Assembly (NCBI GenBank): GCA_020055645.1
Contig: CM034546.1
Location: 63,736,001-63,800,000 of the forward strand
Direction of reading: 5' to 3'
Source: Tomocerus qinae
Taxonomy: Eukaryota; Arthropoda; Collembola; Entomobryomorpha; Tomoceridae
DNA: 64,000 nucleotides
Shown here: piece by piece, positions 7,132 through 59,300 of the stretch
How the letters are laid out: each line of letters starts with the position of its first letter
Numbering within the stretch: the stretch's first letter is position 1
The notes under the pieces: generated by a model
Databases searched by the model: none
What the model saw: the letters and a program-made list of their open reading frames with translations, nothing else
What the model was told of the DNA's origin: nothing
Translations under genes and position numbers: made by a program

Positions 7132-9276
7132 TTATCGTTTTATTATAATCCAGGAAATAACGTTGCAAATATTTTCTAAATAAAATACTGAAATGCTAAT
7201 TAGGAATAAGAAAGCAAAGAATGGGAAAAAGTTATGAAAATATTTTGTGTGGCAATTATTTTTTAATTCGCTATTAACAATAAATTGCTGATATGATGTT
7301 ATAACTGTTTTGCTTTTAAAAAACGTTTGCCATTTATGAAAAAGATCATTAATTCCGGTTCCCATAAAATTCAGCATTTCTATGTACAATTGTTGTTTTA
7401 TGATATAATTAGGGATTTTAAATATAATTTGCTGTAAAAATAGGGATTCTTCCTTGTTCGTCATAAATTTTGAATCGTCGAATATGTATTTACCGTAAAG
7501 ATCCAGTTGGCTTTTAAAATCAATGTAGGCTCTTTTCTTAGAGCAATCTTTCAAAAATGATTTTGTTCTTTGAAAAAACAAATTCTGACTTTTTATTTTA
7601 TTGCATCGAGCATCGGGAAAACCAGTAATGGCATCTTGTACCAAATTATTTTGGCGTGTTCTCCAGAAAGTTTTGTCAGACAATTTATACCAAGCCCATT
7701 CCGTCATTTCGTTTTCCTCAATATTTTTTGCAATTAATAATTTTTCGTTTTTGTTGTATATATTTTGAATCTTCTTAGATAAGCGATACAAATCGCACAT
7801 AATATGTTTCTTCACATTCCCACATGAATCCCATGTTCTTCGTTCTCTGAGTTCGTCTTTGCAGAATGGGGAATAAGTCAGGGGTTCCCAAATGGAAGAT
7901 TCACCTTTTGTGTAGTAGGCCAAAGAATACTTTATTGTGGGCGGTGCTATTAAACTAAAGTTATTGAGATCATTGAAAAAATTGAAAGAATATCTCATGG
8001 GCGGAGGAATCGTCATTTGACTGACGATTATTCCCTTGTAACCATTGCTGAAAATAATTCCAAACAAGATCCAAATTCCAAAAGTCAAAGTAAGTTTCCT
8101 TCTATCTATCCCGTTACCAATTTGTACACCTTGTTCTATTAAAGTGGCAAAAAGGCAAAAAAGACATTTGGCAATCATTGATACTTGCAATTTTTGGAGC
8201 GTTTTTAGTATTAAAATTTTTTGTAAAGTAAGCACAAATGCGACTAAGATTAAAGATGCAAGAAGAAAAGTCCAAGATTCCTTATCGTAGGGTGCAACAA
8301 ATAAATTCCATGGAGGATCTTGGTATAATCCAGTACAAGTGACAAATTTTAAACTATCCATTCGATATAAGATTTGAGGAGTCGGCGGAATAGTATTAAT
8401 TGTTGGTTGATTTTCCCCCTTTAGAAATTTTACAAAATTATGTTTATTTCCCGATGTAATGACTTTGTATTTGTCCCACATAAACAAGTTCAGAATATCT
8501 TTGTCAGTTAAATTCTGCAGTTCTAAAGACTTAAATGGATTAATCCACTTTGCATCAATTGATGACCCATTAAAAGGAACCAATCGTGAATTTTTAACTT
8601 TAAATTCAAAAATAAATTTGGATGCATAGAATTCGTCAACCATGTTACGAAATTTTCGTAAAATTCGCTGAGTTTCATCAGGATCATCTAAAAGTGAGAA
8701 AACGTCTGTTAAATTTGCAGTATCGAGTTGTCCTGAGTTTTTGGTAACGTAAGGACAACCTTTGCACACAGTTTGCTCACATGTCATTTCGTATAATGAA
8801 AGTTCATTTTTGTTGCTACGATTGAAATTAGTATTCAGAATTAAGGAAAATCCATAAGGAAGGCTTTCATACGATTTAGACGAAGCGGAGGCAGATGAAA
8901 TGCGAACATGGTAACCAAAATTTTCATGACAAAATTCAGGTTTTTTGAACATTACAGAAATGATTTCATTGCAAGTGAAATCAGGAGAAACCATTTTATC
9001 CAAATCAAAACTAAAAGTCACTCGCAAAAATGGAAATATCCATTTTCGCCGACTCGAGAGTTTCTTAAAACGTTTGATATGTAAAATTGAAATAGGGACA
9101 TCTAAGCCATTATTTATTACGGGGAAATATTTATCGTAGATGAAAACGACAGCACAATCCTCAAATTCGTGGACTAGTTCTTCTAAATTCTGTAGTTTAA
9201 TTTCAGATATCAAATGTAGCTGCACTTCTACACATAATAATGGGAACAGAAACGATTTTAGTATACAAGATCTCAT
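7132..9276 (-). CDS. Divergent ionotropic receptor (IR), single exon
   Basis: The product is 714 residues, the size of an arthropod ionotropic receptor, a ligand-gated channel related to glutamate receptors and usually found in chemosensory neurons. It starts with a hydrophobic signal peptide (about 8-24). The large extracellular region (25-330) has a Cys cluster EQTVCKGCP at about 167-175. The channel follows: TM1 about 335-357, pore loop about 371-384 (CLFCLFATLIEQG), TM2 about 397-418 (TFGIWILFGIIFSNGYKGII), an extracellular second lobe (about 420-675), and TM3 about 680-703. The paralogue at 13705-15816 has the same layout. The ligand is unknown; the extracellular half is too divergent to identify glutamate-contacting residues. 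No introns are needed. Confidence 0.82.
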   Translation of the reverse strand: MRSCILKSFLFPLLCVEVQLHLISEIKLQNLEELVHEFEDCAVVFIYDKYFPVINNGLDVPISILHIKRFKKLSSRRKWIFPFLRVTFSFDLDKMVSPDFTCNEIISVMFKKPEFCHENFGYHVRISSASASSKSYESLPYGFSLILNTNFNRSNKNELSLYEMTCEQTVCKGCPYVTKNSGQLDTANLTDVFSLLDDPDETQRILRKFRNMVDEFYASKFIFEFKVKNSRLVPFNGSSIDAKWINPFKSLELQNLTDKDILNLFMWDKYKVITSGNKHNFVKFLKGENQPTINTIPPTPQILYRMDSLKFVTCTGLYQDPPWNLFVAPYDKESWTFLLASLILVAFVLTLQKILILKTLQKLQVSMIAKCLFCLFATLIEQGVQIGNGIDRRKLTLTFGIWILFGIIFSNGYKGIIVSQMTIPPPMRYSFNFFNDLNNFSLIAPPTIKYSLAYYTKGESSIWEPLTYSPFCKDELRERRTWDSCGNVKKHIMCDLYRLSKKIQNIYNKNEKLLIAKNIEENEMTEWAWYKLSDKTFWRTRQNNLVQDAITGFPDARCNKIKSQNLFFQRTKSFLKDCSKKRAYIDFKSQLDLYGKYIFDDSKFMTNKEESLFLQQIIFKIPNYIIKQQLYIEMLNFMGTGINDLFHKWQTFFKSKTVITSYQQFIVNSELKNNCHTKYFHNFFPFFAFLFLISISVFYLENICNVISWIIIKR

Positions 9277-10175
9277 AATGGAAAATTTAAAAAGTTTTTT
9301 AACGTTTTCTAAATATGATACTATGGAATTGGTGTTACGTGCTCCAACTTTTCAAAAAGCATCAGCACTAAAATAGGTACCTAAGTATTGCTTAACTGTA
9401 AAGTTGAAGAAAAATAAACATCCATATTAAAATAATTATTTATGGGAAGATAAAAAATTCCCCAAGAAGTGTATAAATAAGGTTTTATTGGTATATAGTA
9501 GCATGACAATTATGACTAATTTCGTAACACACAGACATCCATTATTGGCTAGAAACATTTTAAGCTATTAATTAAACAGCAAGGCAGCAATATACCTACC
9601 AGTATACCACTATTTAGCGAAAAGTTTTTGGACAAATTCTCAAGTAGTGCAATAATTACCCAAGATTTCAAAGATTATATTATTTAGCAATAGTGTACGA
9701 ATGAATGAAACTTTATTTACTGTTTTCTATGGTGGTTATAAAGTTATAATTATTACTTTTCTATTTGTATGTTCTAAACTAAAGAGTGTCATTAAAAAGA
9801 CGGCTTACATCATTCCGTAAGGTGACGGGGTTGGGGATATCCTATTTACCCAGTTTGCATTAAGTGTAAAAAAAGTTTTTACGAATAATATTTATTAGGT
9901 AGTCTCATGTAGTTATAATCGGTCCATTGTTTACGGGCTCAGCTTAATTGCAGAAAAGATTGTGTTGCTTTAACACTTTTAAGCTAATAAAATACTCTGA
10001 TCTGAAGCCTATTGTATTGAATACCAGGAATAACGACGTAATTTGAGTGATCTATATAGACTTTATCTTATCGCAGACTATAATACTGTGTAAAATTGGT
10101 ACAATTTTAGGCACGTGGACCATTATTACTACGACAATGCCATATAAATTATTCCTTTTGCATAAGTAATTTATT
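9277..10175. other. AT-rich intergenic DNA
   Basis: I see no gene, tRNA or dated element here between the first IR gene and the target duplication of the MULE. The stretch just after 9277 is the 5' flank of the IR gene. Confidence 0.5.
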
Positions 10176-10514: not shown

Positions 10515-12143
10515 TTATTCAATAGTATCAATCATGGTCAGGTCAGTTTTAGCATTTGCTTTTTTCTCTGTCTTTAGCAAATATGCAATGCTACGACAAT
10601 AATCGTCTATTTCGATTGTATTGTAAAGAACCACAATATTTTTCAACTTTTCGTTGATTAGATTGTATCTGTTAAGGGATGTCTTCGATAAGCCTGAAGT
10701 AACTTTAGATAGCAATGATAAGTACCATTTGTTCTCTTCAGAGCGTAACTTTTCAATGAAGTTGTACAAACGTGGGTGATTAGTGCGGAACCTGACATTA
10801 AGTGAGTTATGGTACCCTTCTGAAGAATTTGTTGTGCGTGGGAGACCTTGAAGGGTACGATCATAAACGTTCCACATTTTAGGAGGAAAAAGTGCTGGTT
10901 TGGAAAAAGTACCGATCCAAGTTTTTTCTACGTATTTTATAAAAGAATTTAATTGGGGAGGCATGTTTGACACCAAATCTAAAAATCTAGGCCTAATGTC
11001 AGCTTCTGGTACAAAGGATAGGGCAATTAAAGATCTAACATGCAAGCTTATACCTGTGTTTACATCAATGTACTCTTTCTGTAGACCCAGCTCCTGTATC
11101 TTTCGGTAAAAGCATTGCCCAAAATGAAATAGACAACCGAATACAATTGTTGAAGGCCAAACTTCAAGCAATGAATTTCTGACAGCAAGCTCAAAGTCAA
11201 TAATGACTTCAGTAGGATTCCATACCTCCCCAACGTTGGCGGTAGCTAATGCTGTGAATAGCTTTACATATGTTTCTTTCTGTTTATTCGGCAGCAGAGC
11301 ATAAACAAATGGGACCGCAACCTTGTTAACCAAGCCACTGATTATGTAGAGTTGAGCGTATTGTTTCGGTGTCACTTTAAACGTTCCATCGCATATCCAA
11401 GTTGTACATATCGCAAGTCTCTGTAAAAGATAAGCAAATTTTCAACGATATGTAACACTAGAAAACGCAGGAATACGATATGTAATTGTAAATTTGTACC
11501 TTAAGATTAGGCATAGTGGCAAATATTAATATTCTGTCCTCGTCCTTGCTGTCGTGGAACAAAAAGTCCAATTCTGGTCTATTATCACATAAAGTTTTCA
11601 CGGATATATTCAGGTCAATATCCCCTCTGGTCGCTGGCTCCTTAGGGTGATTTTGGTTCTTCTGTCGTCGGTATCGGATTACTCTTTTGGAAAGATCTTC
11701 CGATATCATACTTGCGGCGTCTTGAGATGCACCTTCCAACGCTTTTTGCACTACGACGCTTGGCATGTCATCTGAATCACATCTTTGGCGTATATCCTCT
11801 TTTATGCGATAAAATTCCAACCTTAAATTGTAAAATAAATCACAATTATAACAACATACAAGCTAATTAAATGATTCACCTAAATAATATAATTTATCAT
11901 TAGTAATAATATGCTTATTGAATTTTACCTTCCTCCGTCTGGCTCATGATTGTGCTCTTTTGTTACTTCCAAACCACGTCCATTTCCGTAATTGGCTCGA
12001 CTCGGGCAACTGTACTTTTCGCACCTCCAGTATGTGACTCCGTTTACGGTAGTGTTCGTTTTAGTGTACAAATAGCCTTGAAAACCTAACTTTTCTCCCC
12101 CTTTCTGACTTTTAACAAATTGCACTCCTTCGGACTTAGACAT
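10515..12143 (-). CDS. MULE transposase with FLYWCH zinc finger, three exons
   Basis: Exons are 12143-11929, 11821-11500 and 11420-10515. Both introns (107 and 79 bp) have GT-AG ends and keep frame, giving 480 residues. Exon 1 is a FLYWCH-type DNA-binding finger (F..Y.Y, YWRCEKYSC, then EHNHEP). Exon 3 holds the MULE catalytic core: first Asp in WICDGTFKVTP at its start, second Asp in IIDFELA followed by the family's C-x2-H box (GCLFHFGQ), and the Glu in SSEGYHNSLN. It should cut and paste the surrounding element. The start is the ATG of MSKSEG; an in-frame upstream codon at 12170 is not an ATG. Confidence 0.9.
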
Positions 12144-16832: not shown

Positions 16833-18381
16833 TTACCCGTACATATTAGGGGGAGGGGAGTTGGCTCCACTTTTAATAAGTGAGATAGAGAACTGATCAT
16901 TAAAGTAATCTTCCATGTTATCAAGAACTTGTTGAAGAGATTCAGTATAGGTAATGAAAAGTCCTTGAATCATAGACATGCTAATGGTTGAGCTCAGGCT
17001 TGAAATTTTCTTGACAAGTTTATCTTTAAGTTCACTATAATTTTCAACAGGAAATTCTTCTTGAGGGAAAAATCTGGTGACCATTCCCTCAATTTGTGTA
17101 GAGTCAGGATTGTCAATTAAAACTTTGACGTCAACTCTTCCGGGTCTGGTGAGTGCCGGGTCGAGTTTCTCAACGTGATTGCTAGTCATAAATACAATTC
17201 TGCCTTCCATAGAGCTAACTCCGTCCAAGGCGTTTAAAAGTCCTCGGAAAGTAATCCGAGTGTCACTACAGCCTTCAAAAGCTAAATTGGTCTCCCTGGA
17301 AGAAGCATCTTTGCTTTCTCGACTAATAAATGCTGCATCAATATCTTCCAGAAGGATAATACTGTTTTTAGGAGCTTGATTCATTAAAGTATTTAATTGA
17401 TCATCAGTCAATCCTCTATGATTGAGTGACAGAATGCAAATGTCACTTTTCAATTCTCCAGCGAGGGCACGAATTAAACTACTTTTCCCATTTCCTGGAG
17501 GTCCGTATAATAAATATCCACGGCGATGAGGAATTCCACGATCTTCGTACCATTTACCTTTACTTAAATATGTACGAATATCTTGCAACAAACTCTGCAC
17601 ACGATTTCCAGATAATATCACACTGTCAATCGGCCGTTTCCTAATCGGGCTTCGGCTCTCGTACCAATTGTCATAATCAATATTCAACACTTTAGTAAAA
17701 TCTTGCTTCGGCTCCTCTGGCTTTGGAATTGCATCGTCTAAAATGGCTTGTAGGATACTTTGGTTCTTCTTCAATGTTGTTAGCTTAATACATTCATATG
17801 TTTCTTGCGAACAACGAATTTTTGGGACTACTTTCCTTTCGAAAAGGATCCAGTGACCTTCATGCTCAAATACTAATCGCCCATACCCAGGGAAAAATTT
17901 CGAGCTCACTTTATCAGGCTCTCCATCTTCTCCAAATTTTATTTCCACAACGGCAGTTGCATGTTTAGAAATAATCACTTTTTTACCAACCCATTTCAAT
18001 AGATGCTTGTGCATGTCATGTCCCAGATTTATTCCACCGTATACAAACACAGAGCTCTGAAAATTACAAACAATAACAAACAATTATTTTCTGACCATTA
18101 CAAATATTGAAAATACATTTCCCAATATTTTGTATAATATTGCACGTATAAAATGCAAAAAAATTATTTACCGTTAAATAGTGGAACAGAGTTGCAGCAC
18201 AATATTTTCCCACGAATAAAACTGCAACTAAAATTGCAGGCCAGAATATATGGATTAAGCAATATCTCCATGTAAAATAAATTCCCAAGAGACGGCAGAT
18301 ATTCAACACAGATATACACAGACACACATAACTAAGATTTTTAAATGTAATCCTATCTGCAATAAATGAATAAGCTGCCAT
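16833..18381 (-). CDS. BCS1-like AAA ATPase, two exons
   Basis: Exon 1 is 18381-18172 and exon 2 is 18056-16833. The intron (115 bp, GT-AG) lies in phase 0, giving 477 residues. BCS1 is a mitochondrial inner-membrane AAA protein that moves the folded Rieske iron-sulfur protein into complex III. Seen here: a BCS1-specific middle region with the RPIDSVIL and GKWYEDRGIPHRRGYLLYGP block, Walker A GPPGNGKSS, Walker B IILLEDIDAAF, and the second region of homology FMTSNHVEKLDPALTRPGRVD. It is 50-60 residues longer at the N terminus than usual BCS1 (about 420) and shows two hydrophobic segments (about 14-36 and 41-66) instead of one short anchor. Position 4 of the P-loop (GPPGN) is usually Cys. It could be the true BCS1L orthologue or a paralogue. 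Confidence 0.85.
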
Positions 18382-22487: not shown

Positions 22488-23536
22488 TTATTGCAATTTA
22501 GAATCCATAATTTCGTTTTCCAGCCAAGCAAATTTGTCTTTTCTCATTTTGTCAATGAAGGTTTCTTGCCTTGTCTTAGATTCAGAATTATTATTGTCTA
22601 TGTCGATATTTTCAAAAATTCCTAACTTCTTGATTTTGAAATAATTCACTTGATATTGAAGAGCAGCAGCGCATACCTTCCAGAAAGACAATTCAGGCCA
22701 CAAAACATCCACAAAGCAAAGAACGCTTTCTGCACTCTGCCAAAGAAGAAAATCGCTGAGTCTGGACTCTCCAGAAGTTCGAACCAATAAATCTAAAGGT
22801 CGACTTGGAATAATATCTAAGGATTGGCGAAATAAATCTTGGTTGATGTCTTCCGGTAACAAATCTCCGCTTTCAACTCCCCGATGAAGCAATTCCACTC
22901 CCCGGGCCATTTCATTACGAGAAGTGTATCCGAAGGCAAAGTTTATTTTCATTTTGGTGTTATAACGGGTAAGTGTCATTAGGGTAAATATCGGTTTTTG
23001 TAATTTTGGGGGAATGAGCGACCAGTCTCCTATACACTGAACGCAAATTCCATTCTGCATTAAACTTTCTTTGTTTTCCATAAAACTCGAGAATTTTTCC
23101 TCCGCCAAATCCATTAAACCGTCAACTTCTTCTTTACTCCGTTTGAAATTTTCAATACTGAATACATATGCAGTAACTTCCTTTATACCGAAATCCATAC
23201 CCCATCGCAACACTCGATCGAATTTCAGTGAACTAAAATTTCAATTTCAATATAAATCCATCTGTGCCTTGTAAGTAACGGCTTAAATAGTTTTTACAAC
23301 AACAATTTAAACGGCTTAAACCTCTAAAATGGAAAAATATTTCAAAATCACCCTTTTCGATGTCCTTCGATAGTTTTTAGTCCAGATTTTCGTGCATAGC
23401 GTCTATTTCCGTCCAAAATAAGCCCAACATGTTGAGGTACCGGTCCTTGGCACAAAATGTTCGTCCATAATTTTTGAAGCAATGTTCGATCATCTTCTAA
23501 TATCCAAGATCTCATTTTCGTAGTTAAATGAAACAA
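22488..23536 (-). CDS. DHDDS: Dehydrodolichyl diphosphate synthase catalytic subunit (cis-prenyltransferase)
   Basis: Exons are 23536-23352 and 23232-22488. The 119-bp GT-AG intron splits a Gly codon, and the joined 309-residue protein keeps the family's spacing across the join (EGHRKG to LRWGMDFGI). The enzyme adds isopentenyl units in cis to farnesyl diphosphate on the ER, with its NgBR/NUS1 partner, to make the dolichol precursor for N-glycosylation. Visible motifs: HVGLILDGNRRYA (catalytic Asp region), YVFSIENFKRS, and DLLVRTSGESRLSDFLLWQ followed by WPE. Length is near the usual 330. There is no C-terminal RxG motif, as expected for the DHDDS subunit. The start could instead be the Met seven residues in (MRSWIL). 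Confidence 0.92.
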
Positions 23537-32439: not shown

Positions 32440-35400
32440 TTAACAACAGCATGAACGTTTGGATCTGTGAGGGGTCTCTAAAAGCGTATGGGCCTGTGGA
32501 GTTATTCCTTTTGCACACATGTAGGGCTGACCCTGGTCAATAAATTGTTGTTTTTCTATTGCTCTTCCCTTTGAGTTTTCAAACTGATAAAATTCAGATT
32601 TGGAATCAACGCGTTTAGCAAATGATTGCTTAAAATAAGCATCACTTTTCCAGTAGAAACTTCCAATAGACACTGTCTTCTTTGGTTTCTGCAAATATTT
32701 GAGTACTGCCAATAAATCTTGTTTGTTCTGGCATTGACATTCAATTTTTAACAAAGTAGTACATTTTTTGAATAGGGCCAAACAAGTAGTACTTGTTTCC
32801 TCGACATTTAAATATTTTAAGTTGGTAAGACTGAAAGTTTTGAGTGTCGATTTTATTTTTGTTTTTTGACCAAAAGTAATTTTTTCTACACTCTTCGGTA
32901 TTGCAATAAGATCTATAAGAACAGGTTGATCGAAAGATCCATGTATTTCAATTTCTTTGATGGTCGTTAGAATTTGTGATGAGAAAGGGAATTTGTAGAA
33001 GCTGAATTTGTTTACATTCCATTTAACTTTTTCTAAATCGATTATATTTGGTTCCCATAAGGTAACTGAGTCCATGTGGATATCGTCAGACATGTCAACA
33101 CAAATATCTTTATCGTTAACAGATAGTTTGTAAATATTTTTAAAATCGACAAACTCTTTCAAATGTACATCTGACGCAATGTCATTATATCTTTTGAATT
33201 TTACTTCTTCTACGTGAAGTTCTTTTGGGCAGACTCGATGGCCATGTCTCAAAATTACAGAACATTGACTTAAATAGAGATATTCAACGGAAGGGATTTC
33301 TTCAATTTGCACAGTAAATTGGGATGACGGGGTAGAACTAGAACTTCTGATTTCATTTACAGCCGTTCTCTGATTGTTATCAAATATTAACTCTTTTTTA
33401 TTGCCCATCCCGCTAAGTTTAAGTTTCCGGATGTCAGTAAAATTGAAAAATTCATTTAGATACAATTCTACATCAGCTTCGGCATTTTTATCGATGCGAA
33501 TAAAATTAACGTTTTGCAAGCCAAGCTCCCTGGGGGTGATTTTACTAAATTTTTTATCCACCAGAACTGTACAACCGTTTAAGTAAAGATAACGTAGACC
33601 GGCCATGTCTTCTAATGAGACAATAACATCCGTATAGCAATTCAATTGCAAGTAATTCATCTTTGTACTAACAATTTCTGAAGACAATCTAGATATTTGT
33701 GAAATGCCAGCCCTTTGGTCAAGAAACCAAACCCGATTTAAAACAAGTCGTTCCAAATCGCTTGGAAATTCAGTTTTCTGAATGCAACAATCACAAAGTT
33801 CCATCGTTTTTGTGTCGCCGTTTAACTGTAAACTGACAATTCCGTTTATGTAAGTAAAGCAATATCCCTGCACTTCTAATACTTTTAGGACGTTAACCAG
33901 ATACGTCAAATTGATGATCTCTAAGCGTTGATTTTCTTTCCTAAACTTAACTAGTTCATAAATGCCTTCGAATGCTTCTATTGCTAAATCGTATTTTAAT
34001 GCTATCAGCTGAAGAAAAAATATTTGAGTTTTAACCATCAATTTGTCTACAGAGCGACTTAGGGCCAAAAGAATGTCAAATTCTACATTTTCGGGTATTT
34101 GAATCGGTTTTTCAACTTGTGGGTAAAGATTTTGTAATAAATCTAATGCCTCTTCTAATTTTCCACATTTGCTAAGGCATATTGCATAGTTGACAGTCGC
34201 TGTTGAAAATTGGAGCTCGCTGCTCAGGTACTTTGCTGGTGTAAGACTTTCATGAAACTTTTTGTCATTAAATAGCTTATGAAGTTGATTTGTGTAGATC
34301 GAAATAATTTTATGCCAAACGGTAGACTTTGTGAGCTTTTCGTTGAGATCCATAAGATCAAAAGCATTTTCTTCATTGAATTTGAGTTCAGACTCGTCTT
34401 CCTTTTTTAGCTCCAAGATGAGATTATTTAATATTTCCAAAGCTTCTTTCGTTTCCCCAAATTTTTCTAGACAAACGGCATAATTGTACAACGATGCAGA
34501 AGATTGACTCTCTTGTGAAATGAATTTTGCCAAATCGACCGCTTTAACGAAGTTTCCAGAGACAATTAATTTTTCCAATTGCATCTGATCAATTAACTTG
34601 GCTCCAATACTTCGAAATTCTCTCTTGAGTTTTTCATCTGCATATGTATAAGGCTGCATTTTGTATTCCAAATAACCTTCGCACTGTAAAATCTTCTTTA
34701 ACACTTTTCGTTCGTTGTCTTTTCCATTGATTCTAATTGTTTGCTGTAAAAGTCGGTGCATACTTAACAAATCGACATCAACGCTTTGCCTTTTGGAACG
34801 AACTTTGTTCCAGAAACTGTCATTGTGGGTCAACTTTGTATCTGTCCCAGTTTTTGTTACTAGCGAATATTTCTCTAATAATTCGACAGCTTCCATCAAA
34901 TCTGGTTTCTTGACATTCCCAACACGTCGTAGAAATTCCGCATCCACATCATCTGAACGAACGTAGCCAAAAACTGTGAGTAAATCGAATGCCATTTTTC
35001 CTTTCGGTTCCTTTTGAATTAAATCTAAAGAAATCTGCATGTTTTTATTTATTGTTTTCTCGTAGTCATCAAATTTCTCGTTAAAGATGTTGGCTGACGA
35101 GTCGACTTTGCTTATCATGTCCTTGATATCTAATTTTCCATTATTAAGGGTGGCTACTGTTAGTTGGAGTGCTAAAGGCAAATTCCCTAGCATGTCGCAA
35201 AGTGTTTTTAATTCGCTGTCTTTGAATTGTATGTCAGGATTTAATGCATTCTTAACAAATTCGTAGCTTTCGTTAATTCCGAATACATCCATTTGAAAAT
35301 CGGTGATTCCATGTCCCGTTTTGTTTCCCCAGTCAGTACATCTTGAAGTAATGATACAGTGGAAATTTAAATCATTTTGAGGGAGTACATCCTTAATTCC

Positions 35401-36880
35401 AAGCTCTCCTTGGTATCTCTCGGCATTGTCAAATACCCACAGGCATTTAAATTTCCACATTTTCTCAAAACATTTTCTCGCTAAATTTTTCAAATCCAGT
35501 TCGTGACGAAAATTAATTTTTAAATCCATGGCTAAATCTTTGAATGATTTCAGCAAACTTTCTTCTCCACTGTCAATCCAAAAAATGTGTTGGTAGTCCT
35601 CTTGGTAGTGATTTGCAAACCATTTGGCTGTACTGGTCTTTCCAATCCCACCTAAACCCGAAGCTTTAGCCTTTTGAGTAATTACTACCATTTTATTGTT
35701 TGCTCCCAGCAATAATTCCATAATGTGCTCAATAATTGTTTTCCCATCCAATTTTCGTTCGTAAAAAGCGTTTACTAGAGCTTTTCTCTCTGGCCACCAT
35801 TTCGGGATTAGTTTCTCTTCCTTTTGTACCTCTTCCTTGACTTGACGATCAAGCTTATCACCAATTAGGTTCATATGCTCACAAATATGTCGCAGTAGTT
35901 CATTATTTTCCTTTTGTAAATCGGAAGAGTTTTTTCGATCAGTATCTTTAGGCTTAACAATTATTTGAATAAATTCTTGAATAGCATTTGGGATTTGTCT
36001 CCAATCGTTTTGCAATTGTAATGCACTCAGATGTTGTGACTCGACCTTCTTGTATCCTTTTAAAAGTTCGGTTTGGTTTTCAAACTCAAAGACGTATCTA
36101 AATTCGTTAAAGTTTTTCATTTCCTCAACATCTTGCTTGATGTAGAATTTGCTAAACCCATCTTTAACTATGACTATTGCTTCTTCAAAAAGTTCTTGCG
36201 TACTTAATTTCTTCTCTTTTGATTCTATATCCAATCCTCGTTTTTTAACTAGGGGATGAAATGTTGAACGTCCCTTTAAAAATGCATCAAAGATCATTTC
36301 AGGTGAAAGCTGTTTACCTTCACTGGCATGTTCTGATAAATAGTTGAAAATTCGACGAGTTGTGTCATGGAAAAAGCTTAATTTATTGTCATCGTTGTTA
36401 GTGATGGTATTCAATAAATCTTTGTAAGCTATGCAAATGTAGGACATTCCTGTGCTGACAATGACTTCGAATTCCTTTTCGGCTTTGCTGTTTAACGTAT
36501 TTGTCCAACTTAAAAGATTTTTTCGTTTCCTTTCATCAAGATTTCCCAATACTACATTTCCCACCTTTTCCAAAACACTTCCAACTCCCACTCTTGTTAG
36601 TCCTCTAGTTATTACTCCTGCCAATGGCGCCATTGTTATTGCACCTGTCGCAGCACCTGCAGTTATACCTGCAGCCGCTCCAATTACTATTGTATTTTCT
36701 AGAACTTTTGATGCAAACGTTGTCTTTTGATATTTCCGATCTTCTCTTTGTATTGGAAGCTCCTTAGAAATTAACGAGTTGAAATTTTTTAAGAATACCA
36801 TTTTTCCTGAGCAAATCCAATCTTCTAAAAGTTGTTTCTCGTCTTCGTCAAAGACGAAAGCATTTTCACAATTACTGGCA
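32440..36880 (-). other. NB-ARC, TPR-like, LRR-like and CCC-tail module (single large exon)
   Basis: Within this exon the STAND core shows Walker A GLGGIGKTST, Walker B CLWVFDNAE, the sensor box CIITSRCTDWG, GLPL-like GNLPLALQ, and the winged-helix MHD counterpart SMHRLLQQTIR. Two TPR-like units follow (LYNYAVCLEKFGETKEALE and NYAICLSKCGKLEEALDLL). Then come LRR-like strands (LRYLYLNGC, VEYLYLSQC, LKYLNVEE). The exon ends with a basic RSKR run followed by SCCC, which suits prenyl or palmitoyl attachment. It is open for 1480 codons, so it is not a pseudogene fragment. Confidence 0.88.
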
Positions 36881-38403
36881 CTGTTAAACATTAGTTTTCC
36901 TTTAGACTATGTTTAGGAAAACGGACATAAAGAAGTTACATTAAATTAATTAGTAAAATCACATACTTTTCATTGGTTCCAAATGCTGAGGGTGGTGCGA
37001 GGCTTGTTAACCTCTGTGAGTCGATAACTTCGGCTGTTGCTGCTGCTGGAATGTTGGAAGACGAATTTCCACTTTCTATATTTTCACACCTATTAATTTA
37101 ATAATATTCAATTGACTAAACATGACAATCTACTTTGTACAATCTTAGTACTATAATAATAATAGTAAAATTTGGACACGTTGAGGTTTAGTTTGAAGTT
37201 TTAAGAATGGAAAACTTTATCTACGGAAATATATTGCAGTAATAACAAGACCTGGAAAAATACCTGCCATTCTACCGCAAACACATGGTTTGGTCAGAGT
37301 CAATGCAGTCATAAGTGACATGATGTTTTGCTATTTACCTGTTCGGTTTTGCATCTTCAATAGACAAAGGAATCTTCTCACGAGTTAATATCTCACTCCA
37401 AAACTTAATTTGATCTTTGAATTCTTCCCCAGTTACTGAACACCCTGTTGTGGTTTTCTTTAGTTTTATTTGTTGTCGCATCAATTCAATAAATTGTTTT
37501 GAGTGCAGTGAGAATAAGGAGTCCAAATTATTCTCCTTAGAATACATAGCAAATGAGTTTCCTGGGTGAGGAAGCAAATAAACAGGTGCGCCTTCAAAAA
37601 ATTGAGCCACTTTTTCTTGTTTGAATACATCGTATATCTTGAATGGTTTTGAGCTATTTGTTTCTGATTTGTTCATTTGTGTTGAGCAACCCTTGGGATC
37701 ATAGTAGCCAAAATCATAGCCCGAGAAACTCCAGTCCCGAATCAACAACGTCGAATTTTGATACAAATTCTCATTCTCGAATCTAATATGCAAATTGTAT
37801 TTAATTATTGGCAAGTGAAACAAAAGTAATCATGTTACTATTATTAAATACAAAAATATACATAAACATAGCTAACCTATTATCGTCAGGCTTCAGTTGA
37901 TGTTGCAAGTAATCTTGAGACGCACGAAAGGATTGTAAAGCCTGTTGATCGATGCCTCTAATGCTATTGTAGATGAAAACGGAGCTGAGAAGCCGACTCC
38001 ACGCAAAAAGAGCGACGTTGTCTCTCCAAGTCGTTCCATCATCTTCAACTTGCAAAGTTTCATTACAGTCAATGAGCAATATTGCAATCTTCTCTCCTTC
38101 GTGTTGAATGAATATCGGCTCAGACCAAATATTTATACCGCCTATACTCTGTGTTTGATTATTGCCTTGAAATGGTTTTTTTGACTTCAAAGATTTTTCA
38201 AACCAGCCTTTCTCTTCAGCCTTTTGTATGTAATAAAGAAATTTGTCTAGAAGAAAAGATTTTCCAGATTGTTTTGGACCATTGATTGAATAAATTGCAA
38301 AACGACAGGAGCCAATTTTCGTTAGTATTTCAAATAAAACATCAGTATCCAAATTAAATGATTTCTCCTTTGGACCCAGAAGTTGGACAACTTTTCCATT
38401 CAT
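32440..38403 (-). CDS. Atlastin-type GTPase / NB-ARC / TPR / LRR-like STAND receptor (predicted fusion)
   Basis: Predicted exons: 38403-37877, 37782-37339, 37089-36967 and 36880-32440, total 1844 residues. The three introns (94, 249 and 86 bp) are GT-AG and each junction keeps frame (phase 2). Residues about 1-320 are an atlastin-family GTPase. The third exon is a 40-residue Ser/Ala linker. Then come a glycine-zipper hydrophobic stretch (about 429-459), a helical region, NB-ARC (about 755-1085), two TPR-like repeats (about 1160-1285), LRR-like strands (about 1435-1760) and a basic C-terminal tail ending SCCC. STAND ATPases of this plan oligomerise on ligand binding to trigger immunity or cell death. 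A separate NB-ARC gene starting at the ATG at 36889-36891 is the alternative; that ATG lies in intron 3 of the fusion model. The upstream TTTTTTGTTACAG acceptor at about 38410 hints at a 5' UTR exon. Confidence 0.7.
37339..38403 (-). other. Atlastin/GBP-superfamily GTPase module
   Basis: Two exons encode a domain that follows atlastin closely in order. P-loop GPKQSGKSFLLD; the switch I counterpart SIGGINIWSE (atlastins have a Thr-Thr-Gly form); the G3 counterpart LLIDCNETL; the G4 RD box LLIRDWSFSGYDFGY; and the base-binding YLLPHP block followed by a helical segment. Atlastins dimerise through GTP hydrolysis to fuse ER membranes. Here the G3 Gly of DxxG is replaced (D-C-N-E) and the switch I Thr pair is gone, so hydrolysis is probably changed. 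There is no atlastin-type transmembrane hairpin in this module. Confidence 0.82.
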
Positions 38404-53310: not shown

Positions 53311-56300
53311 ATGGAAAAATTGTTAAATAGAAATTTAGTTGACCTCACTGAGAAGTTGTCCGGTTTGACTTCGGTGCTCAACCGGTTAATCCAACATGAA
53401 ATAATCACACAAGTCGAAGCTAATATCATTGTAAGTTTCCACATAATTTATTTACTTTAAACAAAATGTTTGAACTGGATTATTAAAAAATATTCAATCT
53501 AAGCAGAAAAGCAAGACAACTGATATTGATGCAAATACTGAGCTGATGACCATTTTAAAGAAAAAACATGACAGGGTATTGCCCACATTTTGCCAAATTC
53601 TTCGCGACACCGGAAACAGCCATTTAGCCGACCAAATTGTCAAAAGTAAAGAGTTGGAAAACATTGAATGCAGCGATCATTACAATATGCCTGGACCTTC
53701 AAACTGGCCAAGATTTTCACATTCACTTCCGTCGGAAGATGTTCAATATAAAATACACATGAGTAAATCTGTGCGGGAAAAATCGCCTCAAAAAGTAACT
53801 TTGGTACCGACTTCCAAAATTGCAACTGCAGCATCGTCATGGAGCAGCCCTGCCATACAAAATAACTTGGGTACCACTACAATTAACCATAGGGGAGATC
53901 GCTGTCGGTTGTCCCGTGCTGTCGGTTGTCCGACTACCATTATTTGGAATAATACTTGTTAGTATGAACTGGGATTTATAGCATACATACAAGTTTGTTT
54001 AATGGAAACTGACACAAAATATTTTTAAAATCGGTTGGGAAATATGGCTACAAAAAATAAAATTCGGATTTTGAACTTTAAAGTAACTTTTTCATAGTCA
54101 GCAAAATTTTTATTAAAAACTGACGTGAATAATTTTGAAAGATAATAATTTTTTGACTACAAGTACTGATATTCAGGATTAAAATTTGATAATAATTTTA
54201 AGTTATTGTTTATACCCCTTCCAGGGAAAATTGGTCATTATTAAAATGGGCAAGTGCTGTCGGTTGTCCGACTAGTGCATGCTGTCGGTTGTCCATATTA
54301 AAACTAATGGTTAGAAAACAATAATACCACTTTTTTAAATTAATTGTTGTAAATAATGGTTTTGTTAAGATAATATGCCAACTCTACGTTTTTACAATTT
54401 AATTATCTAACATTAGTGTCTTGGATCAAACGAAAACACTGTTTTCTTCTTTGAGTTAGTATTTTCATTCGTTTTCATCTTTTTTTAACCGAAAAAAAGT
54501 TGCAAAATCCTTGAAAGTTTATACATATGTTTTTGAACATAAAACCATGACTTTTATAAAAATTTGAATTTGGTTTTATTGTTTGTTAGCTATTAATCTT
54601 AACTCGGACAACCGACAGCACTAGCGCTGTCGGTTGTCCGAAAATAATATTTTCAAATAAAATTAATTTTTCCCTACATTGAGGGATATGTGGTTAGTGA
54701 TATTAATTACGTCTGTACCTAAGATCCCAATAATTAAAATGTATAAAACACATTTATGAAAAATATTAAGGGTTAATTATAAAAATTATCGAAGTAAAAT
54801 CTCGGACAACCGACAGCACTCTCCCCTACAATTTATCAAGGAGATAAAATGTTTATAATAATACCAGAATAATTACATCTTAGATAAAAAGTGGTGGCCA
54901 GAAGAAAAACGTCTGGTTAAGTCATTTTACGAAAGAAAACTGAACGGACAATTGGTGGTTGACAAATTGTACTCGATGTTAAAGGAAAGTAAGACCACAG
55001 TGATCACTCAGGAGACATTAGTCGTATCAGGATTGGGAGGCATAGGAAAGACATCCATCGCTAAGTCGTTTGCAAATCATTACCAAAATGAATATAACCA
55101 CATTATTTGGATTGATTGTGGTGAAGGAAGTCTTGTTAAATCCTTCGAATCGTTGGCCAGAGATCTAAATGTAGAATATAGATCAGAACTAAACCTAAAA
55201 GAATTGGCACAAAAGAGTTTTGCCCTACTTGGAGGACTGAAGTGCTTAATAATCTACGATAATGCCGAATGCTATGTAGGCAATGAGGGAATTCGTGATG
55301 TCCTGCCCAACTCTGAACGAAACGCTAATCTCCATACGATAATAACATCAAGGAATCAAGATTGGGGAACAGCAACTGGCTATGGAAAGATCAATAAATT
55401 TTGCATGAATGTTTTCAGTGGGGAGGAGAGTTTTCAATTCATGAAAAACTCCCTCGAAGATAAATCAAATTTTAATGACCCACTGATTAGAAAACTTTGC
55501 TCACTACTTGGCCATCTTCCGTTGGCTCTACAAATTTCTGTGGCGACATTGAACAACCATGCGATAACCATTGCCGACTACATTGAACAAATAATCGACG
55601 ACGATGAAGATTTAATAAACGATGAACGTTTATTTGATGACTACGAACGCACAATTAACACAACTATGAAAATATCATTAGATCAAATAAAAATTGGAAA
55701 TGGCGGTAGAAATGCTTACAACATTCTAATTACATTTGGTTACATCCAACCCGATGACATTGAATTATCGTTTCTGCAGACAGTTGAAAACCTATCCTAC
55801 CCACAAGTAAAAAATGCAATATGTTTGCTTGAAAGGTTTTCTTTGGTCACGAAAGAAACCAAAATTGGAAAGAGAGGCCGAGAATCAACTTACGTCAGCA
55901 TTCATCGTCTATTACAGCAGGTCATAAGATACAATGGCAAGAAAAGTGAAAAAGAGGTTTTAAGAAAAATCTTATCTTTAGACAGGTACATCAATTACAA
56001 ATTAATCCCTTACACTTTCGCTGAAAAACACAAAGACTTGAAACAAGAGTTTCATTATTTACGAACGCAGTTGATTGACCAAGTGAAACTAGAGGATTTA
56101 CACAAAGAAAGGAGATTCGTTGAAGCAGCAGATTTAGCATTAATAATCCATGAGACCTTCAGCATGACAGAATTGCCTAAAGAATATTTGATATCCAAGT
56201 ATAATCACGCAGTTTGTTTGGAGAAGTCTGGGCAGAAAACTAAGTCCGTTGATGTTTTCATGTCTCTGTCTGGGGAATTGCATGATGTGGAGATGAACAA

Positions 56301-59300
56301 TTGTGATGAAATAAGCAAATCCTGGACAATTGATGAAAACGACGAAATTCAGCTCCATTTAAAATCATTAAGCGATACGATTCCCAACAAAATTATAATT
56401 AATAACTGCATTGATCTGTGTCAACAAAGCGCGGATGATTTACTTCAATTTTATAGATTGTGTGAAAATCAATTTGAAAACACTTTTCCTAAAATGCAAG
56501 CGTTTAACTACGACCAACTATTAATAATGCTTCATTTAGGATTAATGATTTCGGATGAGAAAGACTCTCTGTTAATTGGTAATGAATTTGTTGATGCTAT
56601 AGGTTTATACACATGCGAGAATTACTCCGTTGACTTTTCAATATGGTTGCACTTTTCTTCCAAGTTGCTAAAAGTGGCTATTAAATTGATATCTCAAATA
56701 CAAAATGAGAACAGTTCAAATTCAAAAACGGTGACAAAGTTATTTTTTGTATCACGAAAATATATTTTTCGAATTGAAAGTGAACAATTTCAGAAGAACC
56801 CCTCGAGATGCAAGCTGATTTGCGACGTTTTTCAGACTTTGATTGATAAAGTGAAGAATTTAAATGCGCTTGAAATTCTACATAATATCATCTCATATCT
56901 TAACTTTATCATAAAAACAGAATCTGGTGTTGCAGCGGACATGAAGGAATTTACTCCACCTCTGTATTTAGGTAATTTCTTATAATTGTGTAAACATAAA
57001 ACAACATAACTTATAATGACATTTTAAGGTGATGTATTTTTGATAAACTGACAAAAGCAAAGAATTCTTGATGGTATTAGGATATGCATTTTAGTTTTCT
57101 GAATGGACCTCGAAAACAAAAGGATTGAAAGATAATTAGACAATGAAAGTTCTCGCTCGACTCGGCTCACCGAGGTATATGCGTACCTAGTGAAGGAGTG
57201 CACACTGTGTATAATCAAGTGGACTAGCGGACATAATGGCGCAATGTATTGAGTAATGACTAAGGACTAGGAGATGGTTGGTTGAAGAGCATGAATTAAA
57301 CATTGTAAAGTAGGACACAAGTAAATAAAACACATATACTCAAAAATTAAACAATTAAAATTTATTTTTAAATCAGCAGTCTTAAAAATATAAAAGCGAT
57401 TTGCTTCAACAAACTTGCACAAAAACGACATTTTCGTATAAATGCGAGTTGCGTCGACAAAGTCGCAGTAAAAATAACATTTTCGTATAAATGCGAGTTG
57501 AGTCGACAAAGTCGCAGTAAAAATGACATTTTCGTATAAATGAGAGTTGAGTCGACAAAGTCGCAGTAAAAATGACATTTTCGTATAAATGCGAATTGCG
57601 TCGACAAAGTCGCACAAAAATAACATTTTCGTCACAACTCGCACTTCTACGAAAATGTTGGTTTTTGTGCGAGTTTGTCGACGCAACTCGCACTTATACG
57701 AAAATGTCGGCTTTGTGCGAGTTTGTCGAAGCAACTAATATTTATACGAAAATGTCGTTTTTTGTGCGAGTTTGTCGAAGCAAATCGCTTTTATAATTTT
57801 TAAAACTGCTGATTTAAAATTAAATTTTAATTGTTTAACTTTTGAGTGTTTTGTGTTTTATTTATTTGTGTCCTACTTTACAATGTTTAATTTATGCTCT
57901 TTAACCATCTCCTATTCCTTATACTCAATAGTCATTATACTCAATACATTGCGCCATTATGTCCACTTGATTAGACACAGTGTGCACTCCTTCACTAAGT
58001 ACGCATATACCTCAGTGAGTCAAGTCGAGCGAGAACTTTCATTGTCTTCTTATCTTTCAATCTTTTTGTTTTCAAGGTCTATTCAGAAAACTAAAATGCA
58101 TAACCTAATATTAGAAAACTGTTATAAAACTTTAGGAGTACCATGGAAAATAACTCATTCTGTGTTATACAGACACTTATCTAGAAATTTGTTCAAGGGG
58201 GCGGAAGCAAAAATTATACTAAAAACATTTTGCAATTTTCGGCCATTTTTGAGAAAAAAATTCTCTTGTTTTCAGATTTAGGGGGCGCTGCGCCCCCCCC
58301 CCCCGCCCCTTACTAAATTAATTTACGTAAAATACATGCTTGGTGTTATATACTGTCATTAGATTTATATTTTGAAAGAATTCAAAATATTTTAACATTA
58401 AGATTCTAATTTAACTATAATATTAAAAAAAATTTTCAACTTTTTTGCCTCTTATATTGGATTTAGATCTGTGATGCCCAGTTATTTAAACTATTGTTAA
58501 AGCCACTATTATTTTTTGATTAGATGAATACGGCTATCAAAAGACACCATCTATTATAGAGGGAAAATTTACGTATATGAAAGCCGATGAAGTTTTCTTC
58601 ACCCGTTTTTCCAATCCAGAATCACTCACGAGTCTCACTTTGGAGAGGATGACAATTTTTATGCCTTATCTGTTGTCTTCAATCGCTCAATGCTGCAATC
58701 TGGTTGAAATTTATTTTCAGAAAATTCGATTTTGGGGTTCATCTATATATAAAACAAGCTTGCCCAAGTTAAAAAGGTATGAAATGAATGTAGATGGTAA
58801 GGGTAGTGCCGAATTTTCTTTAATTGATTATTATACTTGGTTTGGAGGAAGAGAATTGTGCATTTGGACATCTATACAAAATTTAGAATATTATTCAATT
58901 GAAACATATCTTTGTTCCATTAAATCTGACAAACAGTCTCAGATTTTTGAACTTAAGGGAGTCTGGATTAACAAGTTCCATCAACGTCAACTAGGCTATT
59001 TCACCAATATAACCCTGACACTCTGTAAAATTCTTGATGATAATAAGAGTGTGTGTAACTGTCACAATTGTGTTGACAATGCAGAAAGGCCTCTTTCTAT
59101 TGTTACCGAATCTAAGACTGAGAAATGGAATCATTCAGAATTAATGATGGTGAGGGGTGAGGGATACAAAGAGTTAGATTGTCATATAATTGACTTTTGT
59201 AGTTTTTTGGGAGGGAGGAAGTCATGCATAAAAAAGATAGAGTGTTTGAAATATTCTTTCACAAATGAGTCAGGTTATTGTGTTGAATATCAAAATTCAA

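Follow-up and report, generated by a model that had tools for sequence, protein, structure and literature searches.

The 64,000-nucleotide stretch of the genome of the collembolan Tomocerus qinae analyzed here (CM034546.1, positions 63,736,001 to 63,800,000; hereafter, the window), which is free of N, encodes on its minus strand a predicted receptor of the STAND class (signal transduction ATPases with numerous domains) with an atlastin-type GTPase domain at the N-terminus. Four exons, spliced at three phase-2 GT-AG introns, form a single open frame of 1844 residues followed by a stop codon (Table 1). The domains are arranged in the order atlastin-type GTPase, linker, a domain of about 360 residues (hereafter, the private domain), NB-ARC and TPR. 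A preliminary description of this locus had proposed the same layout, with the GTPase exons, the linker exon and the NB-ARC exon on one strand and GT-AG introns of the lengths given in Table 1; it had also put the 3' splice site before NB-ARC in frame, just inside the apparent ATG. Both points hold: the acceptor at 36880 is in frame, and the ATG is intronic.

Once spliced, exons 1 and 2 show a match to the Pfam family GBP (PF02263) that runs across the splice join (residues 14-280, 6.1e-26). In PDB, the G domain matches atlastin-1 (1.3e-22) and atlastin-3 (5.2e-20), with GBP1 far weaker (1.8e-5), and Met1 aligns to the first residue of the 3x1d chain, which is named Atlastin. Judged by these matches, the G domain is of the atlastin type and not closer to GBP. 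The rest of the frame shows the hallmarks of STAND, or nucleotide-binding leucine-rich repeat (NLR)-like, proteins: an NB-ARC NTPase with the strings GLGGIGKT, VFDNAE, IITSR, LPLAL and SMHRLL, which we take to be the named motifs of this domain, and C-terminal repeats, with TPR_19 over the cut-off. The proposal of an atlastin-type GTPase joined to NB-ARC, TPR and leucine-rich repeats (LRRs) stands with regard to the first three, which share one frame; the LRRs in the C-terminal region are weakly supported, with the LRR_8 and LRR_4 matches below their cut-offs, an LxxLxL count equalled in 434 of 5000 shuffles and zero repeat pairs in a blastp self-comparison. The Pfam scan finds no CARD within the fused gene, and between 36891 and 35671 (407 residues), no Pfam family exceeds its cut-off.

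Two short motifs were noticed in the receptor. A BH3-like motif, ICEHMNLIGDKLD (35848-35886, minus strand), lies immediately ahead of NB-ARC; it is not used here, the Pfam BID match being below the cut-off (0.019), and shuffles give 5/5000 for a strict and 468/5000 for a looser pattern, both picked after the motif had been seen. The C-terminus of the window copy, HRSKRSCCC (32440-32469, minus strand), is a possible lipid anchor, which was dropped as a conserved feature because the paralog L029, described below, ends in EKQQFIAY.

Table 1. Coordinates of the features of the fused receptor gene and of the neighboring CARD gene within the window
Feature	Position	Strand	Description
Exon 1	37877..38403	-	start codon and N-terminal half of the atlastin-type G domain, with P-loop GPKQSGKS, switch I QSIGGIN and DCNE replacing DxxG
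Intron 1	37783..37876	-	94 bp; acceptor ATATTAG/ATTCG identical in window, tandem copy and L029
Exon 2	37339..37782	-	C-terminal half of the G domain, with IRDWSF and LLPHPG
Intron 2	37090..37338	-	249 bp
Exon 3	36967..37089	-	linker of low complexity, 123 nt
Intron 3	36881..36966	-	86 bp; contains ATG 36891-36889, a possible independent start of the NB-ARC ORF
Exon 4	32440..36880	-	private N-terminal domain, NB-ARC, TPR, C-terminal region, stop
Private domain	35803..36879	-	residues 366-724; matches neither an NCBIfam family nor, above the cut-off, a Pfam family
Glycine zipper GAAAGITAGAATG	36643..36681	-	located in the 21-residue segment with the highest hydrophobicity in the protein
NB-ARC	35029..35664	-	Pfam PF00931, 1.9e-7, 31.1 bits (cut-off 23.5)
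TPR	34402..34560	-	Pfam TPR_19, 3e-6, over cut-off
FNIP/LRR-like repeat, weak	32863..32961	-	one Pfam FNIP match, 4.5e-5, over cut-off
Neighboring paralog, CARD-NB-ARC-TPR gene	53311..56985	+	CARD exons 53311-53430 and 53507-53794; NB-ARC-TPR exon from 54868; separate gene

One gene or two

From the window alone, the case for a single gene is moderate. The donor at the 3' end of the G domain, CAG/GTAAAT, agrees with 8 of the 9 letters of the donor consensus, and such sites occur at 0.29 per kb; the coding score of exon 3 (6.5 bits) is reached by 1.5% of noncoding pieces. The agreement of phases pointed out in the preliminary description is borne out, all joins being of phase 2, but is modest as proof, given that open phase-2 AG..GT pieces with an equal score occur at 0.66 per kb in the noncoding DNA of the window. 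Five AG acceptors are located between 36935 and 36840, of which 36880 and 36874 are in frame and the nearest upstream pair, 36906 and 36899, is out of frame; 36906 was ruled out as the acceptor of exon 4, the spliced frame not being open.

Paralogs were sought in the entire genome of 334,443,149 bases, whose contig 1 (C1) includes the window. The exon-4 protein yields at least 56 matches (31 of the 738 candidates scored), several of them to more divergent copies, and the fused layout is found at four loci, namely the window, L029, a tandem copy (L030) and a broken copy at 65.25-65.26 Mb, a count that leaves out extended open frames whose GBP matches are weak, three of which were read (L055, L056 and L057). 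The most informative of these loci is L029 (C1:65.405-65.409 Mb), 1.6 Mb from the window, with 78% identity in the exon-4 protein. Its exon 4 is preceded by the two GTPase exons, whose order and strand match those in the window (79.5% and 62.5% identical), and both genes are open throughout. In the alignment of the two, acceptor 1 and donor 2 are identical, donor 3 and acceptor 3 fall in matching columns, and the phases match. With the first usable acceptor, the linker exon of L029 has the same length as in the window (123 nt); three later in-frame acceptors give shorter exons, and the spliced models with any of these acceptors, or with exon 3 omitted, contain zero internal stops. The window ATG at 36891-36889 is gapped out in L029, in which the first in-frame Met of the NB-ARC open reading frame (ORF) is residue 113, within conserved sequence. 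Because L029 keeps the four-exon layout, the linker length, the donor and the phases while lacking the ATG that could start the NB-ARC ORF, the prediction of a single gene encoding a STAND (NLR-like) receptor with an atlastin-type G domain in front is considered confirmed.

The alternative, under which an atlastin-like GTPase gene and an adjacent NB-ARC receptor gene have been duplicated jointly, is rejected on the comparison with L029 and appears highly improbable. It would account for the in-frame ATG at 36891 that is kept in the window and tandem copies, for the ORF of another paralog, L032, which starts with a Met directly at the private domain, and for the ATTAAA at 37102; it is at odds with the loss of that ATG in L029, with the conservation there of the donor after the GTPase and of the 123-nt linker exon, and with the stops in both halves of the copy at 65.25-65.26 Mb.

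Two of the four fused loci are not intact. The tandem copy (C1:63.819-63.829 Mb) is 97-99% identical to the window gene (67% in the linker exon), with open GTPase exons and a linker exon of 126 nt that is open in frame, and its NB-ARC is interrupted by an insert of about 620 bp, the position of which comes from tblastn only. The exon-4 protein matches this copy at 63.820-63.825 Mb with 98-99% identity. In the broken copy, stops are present in the NB-ARC half and in exon 1, and exon 2 is unmatched there.

The GTPase head

Atlastins are fusion GTPases of the endoplasmic reticulum (ER) that belong to the dynamin superfamily and contain a three-helix bundle and a membrane hairpin. Neither of these elements is detected by sequence in the fused protein, in which the PDB matches stop at residue 314. 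Within the G domain, the principal change affects the DxxG motif, which is replaced by DCNE in all three fused copies read (window, tandem copy and L029); in the window head, the residue aligned with Gly149 (human atlastin-1 numbering) is Glu under all three gap settings. This Gly is retained in 17 of the 17 unfused relatives read, a set that derives from the best 20 of the 72 GBP matches in the genome, of which 17 have a readable P-loop frame and some are near-duplicates. The DxxG change is thus firm. In the P-loop, Lys80 and Ser81 of atlastin-1 are kept in the window head, and Arg77 is replaced by Gln in the window and tandem copies; the P-loop Arg is present in all 17 unfused relatives, and the switch-I Thr in all 14 readable unfused stretches. 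In the fused copies, switch I reads SIGG or SKGG; in the window head, Thr120 is aligned to Ser or Ile, and Thr121 to Ile or Gly, depending on the gap cost, such that the switch-I Thr is probably lost, in an alignment-dependent manner, and the weight of this change turns on whether the conserved Ser can substitute for the Thr. These motifs suggest that nucleotide binding by the head is likely retained and that the head is probably a non-catalytic, atlastin-like integrated domain.

In a tree of 17 unfused and 3 fused rows, the fused rows form one clade (100/100) with a long stem, and therefore the fusion most simply arose once; L054 is the neighbor of this clade (92/89), a placement that is unsure owing to long branches. 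GBP/atlastin-like GTPases are expanded in this genome (L038, L041, L043, L045 and other loci), and some of the open frames span 1490-1842 residues with long unassigned tails. By eye, the long open frames of L055, L056 and L057 resemble very large inducible GTPases, presumably of the VLIG/GVIN type.

The comparison of the window gene with L029 (Nei-Gojobori method, own script; exon 3 left out, codons with a stop or gap dropped) gives a ratio of nonsynonymous to synonymous substitution rates (dN/dS) of 0.18 for exon 1 (bootstrap 0.11-0.30) and 0.34 for exon 2 (bootstrap 0.20-0.61); the values for the private domain, NB-ARC and the C-terminal part are 0.14, 0.08 and 0.21, respectively, and dS ranges from 0.54 to 0.95. 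Purifying selection acts on both GTPase exons, of which exon 2 is the least constrained region of the gene compared. Because a key catalytic residue is lost and yet the head is kept by selection, the head would more likely be a bait or docking part than a working enzyme.

The preliminary description had cast the head as a membrane-remodeling effector. Under this hypothesis, the NB-ARC ring would cluster the heads, which would bind GTP, dimerize and tether or deform the ER membrane, with the glycine zipper of the private domain as an anchor. The N-terminal position of the head, the P-loop, RDW and LPHPG motifs in all three fused copies, the conserved Ser near the position of the switch-I Thr and the purifying selection are compatible with such a role, for which there is also a precedent in zebrafish Gbp4, a protein that combines a GBP GTPase with a CARD and requires its GTPase activity (PMC4932187). 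The effector role is nevertheless unsupported because the DxxG Gly is lost in the fused copies and kept in the unfused ones, the atlastin bundle and hairpin are undetected, and no GTPase was found at four paralogs headed by the private domain (see below); overall, it appears rather unlikely. An internal regulator, namely a head that needs no outside partner and, by binding GTP or GDP but not turning it over, sets a threshold or keeps the receptor in a closed state, would agree with the kept P-loop and the altered catalysis-linked residues. Nothing indicates contact between the head and NB-ARC, however, and the paralogs appear to cope without the head, which makes this role improbable.

The private domain and the proposed mode of action

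The genome search with the private domain of L032 gives 9 matches (11 candidates): 8 are located ahead of NB-ARC, and the remaining match is a stop-containing fragment. The GTPase exons are present at four of the eight NB-ARC loci with a private domain, which include the broken copy; at the other four, genome-wide searches found no GTPase exons, and at three of these (L031, L032 and L033), the 5.5-6.3 kb upstream contain no GTPase tblastn match. From this distribution, we conclude that a subfamily of the receptors has the private domain as its N-terminal domain. Because four subfamily loci were found without a GTPase, the GTPase was most simply added in front of the private domain in one clade; likewise, because the private domain heads such paralogs, it is the putative output part. 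The glycine zipper in a hydrophobic stretch of this domain would suit membrane insertion; the run is held by 28 of 5000 shuffles, with the pattern picked after the run had been seen.

Outside this genome, relatives of the receptor are scarce. In searches that require shared 5-residue words, the exon-4 protein has one match at 1e-5 or better (best 7999 candidates scored), an ant protein with 29% identity over 28%, which carries OTU, ankyrin, NB-ARC and TPR and might be of symbiont origin. Further searches of this kind gave none at 0.001 among 2852 candidates and none at 0.01 among the best 7996 candidates; scans of sequence collections with six short peptide patterns found no relative, and phage records gave no match.

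The interpretation favored here, with a probability of about 0.52, is that of a STAND receptor in which an atlastin-like head that hydrolyzes GTP poorly or not at all serves as an integrated docking, bait or scaffold domain, and the private domain provides the output. By analogy with known STAND proteins, the C-terminal repeats would hold the receptor off, and recognition would trigger nucleotide exchange at NB-ARC and assembly of the receptors into a ring; the paralogs suggest that the private domain would then deliver the output. With little or no GTP hydrolysis and no membrane remodeling of its own, the head could dock the receptor at the ER network or at atlastins, or act as bait for attackers of atlastin, and report to the NB-ARC switch. 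The occupation of the N-terminal position by a CARD in the neighboring paralog favors this scheme. A narrower and quite doubtful version is an animal NLR-like integrated decoy, in which the degraded atlastin copy would trip the receptor when microbes or viruses seize atlastin to reshape the ER. To our knowledge, the integrated-decoy design of receptors has been described in plants only. Flaviviruses and Legionella are reported to use atlastins, albeit not in this animal (PMC7161947), which makes a bait role plausible in principle.

Several observations weigh against the favored interpretation. All three fused copies have an intact P-loop GKS and RDW motif, and LPHPG is also kept; L029 retains the P-loop Arg, and Ser, which is kept in L029, replaces Thr120 in two of the three gap settings. 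Because the P-loop is intact, nucleotide binding, and perhaps some hydrolysis, may remain in the fused heads. The comparison of motifs covers the best 20 of the 72 GBP matches and does not extend to motif loss in the weaker unfused GTPases. No dN/dS above 1, which would hint at an arms race, is seen in the regions compared between the window and L029, and beyond the distant ant protein, the above searches found no relative outside this genome. The assignment of the output to the private domain draws on the paralog comparison only; the ligand, the pathogen and the partner of the head are proposals; and the gene is known here from genomic sequence.

A head that is altered at a catalytic motif and yet selected poses a testable question, namely, whether an animal receptor guards the ER-shaping machinery, and a receptor subfamily with and without the added head represents a natural experiment.

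Genomic setting and known systems

The genome search for NB-ARC yields at least 126 matches over the cut-off (126 of the 253 candidates scored), which amounts to a large STAND repertoire for an arthropod; the GBP search yields 72 matches (83 candidates scored). Within the window, the separate CARD-NB-ARC-TPR gene (Table 1) has a spliced CARD (Pfam, 7.1e-14; splice sites inferred by eye) and is 46.9% identical to the fused receptor over 482 columns of NB-ARC and TPR. A genome search for CARD gives three matches (144 candidates), one of which is located about 400 bp ahead of an NB-ARC at C1:70.66 Mb; the window CARD was missed because it is split by an intron. In the region 53902-54816, CTGTCGGTTGTCC occurs seven times, with none elsewhere in the window at up to one mismatch (shuffle expectation 0.02); this region is perhaps a mobile element in the intron of the CARD gene. 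Two arrays of a 49-bp tandem repeat directly follow this gene (57389-57795). Elsewhere in the window are a ligand-gated-channel-like gene, genes resembling BCS1 and cis-prenyltransferases, and a MULE transposase domain (7132-9351, 16833-18083, 22488-23240 and 10515-11441, all on the minus strand); the Lig_chan match of the ligand-gated-channel-like (ionotropic-receptor-like) gene is below the Pfam cut-off (5.7e-6).

The preliminary description knew of no report of an atlastin-type GTPase in a STAND receptor, and neither the combination of atlastin and NB-ARC nor that of Collembola and NB-ARC occurs in the open-licence literature searched; broader searches showed no such architecture among the matches listed, judged by title and abstract opening. 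The atlastin-like head thus seems new in such receptors.

Compared with atlastin, the head has a colinear G domain from residue 1, with atlastins as the best PDB matches, and differs in the loss of the DxxG Gly, the probable loss of the switch-I Thr, the undetected bundle and hairpin, and the junction with a STAND receptor. Zebrafish Gbp3 and Gbp4 similarly join a GBP-family GTPase to an inflammasome domain in one protein; unlike the window gene, they are of the GBP type, with a C-terminal CARD and, in Gbp4, a need for GTPase activity, and the available text does not mention NB-ARC (PMC4932187, PMC9978379). In animals, fusions of TRADD-N proteins with AIG and GBP GTPases also exemplify the addition of a GBP GTPase domain to an immune or apoptotic module, with TRADD-N instead of NB-ARC and with atlastin not named in that text (PMC8195603).

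With regard to the receptor part, the protein resembles NB-ARC-TPR STAND proteins (NCBIfam NF040586, FxSxx_TPR, 2.6e-33, 115.5 bits, below the cut-off of 300). Fungal NB-ARC/TPR NLRs share this pair of domains and differ from this animal gene with a GTPase and a private domain in front. In the sections of the fungal survey at hand, eight canonical N-terminal domains are given, none of them a GTPase, and Dynamin_N is named once, for an excluded orthogroup (PMC12258605). Unlike the Apaf-1/CED-4 type (CARD-NB-ARC), the fused gene has no CARD match, and its neighboring paralog has a CARD. Plant NLRs with an integrated decoy contain a degraded copy of a host protein within the receptor, in addition to the output domain. 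The window receptor would be similar in carrying a degraded host-protein copy besides a putative output domain, and differs in being an animal protein and in that a pathogen target of the head is a proposal. Finally, an animal NLR survey states that arthropod NLRs lack an N-terminal effector domain (PMC11508797); the window contains a CARD-NB-ARC gene, along with a member of one receptor clade that possesses an atlastin-like head.

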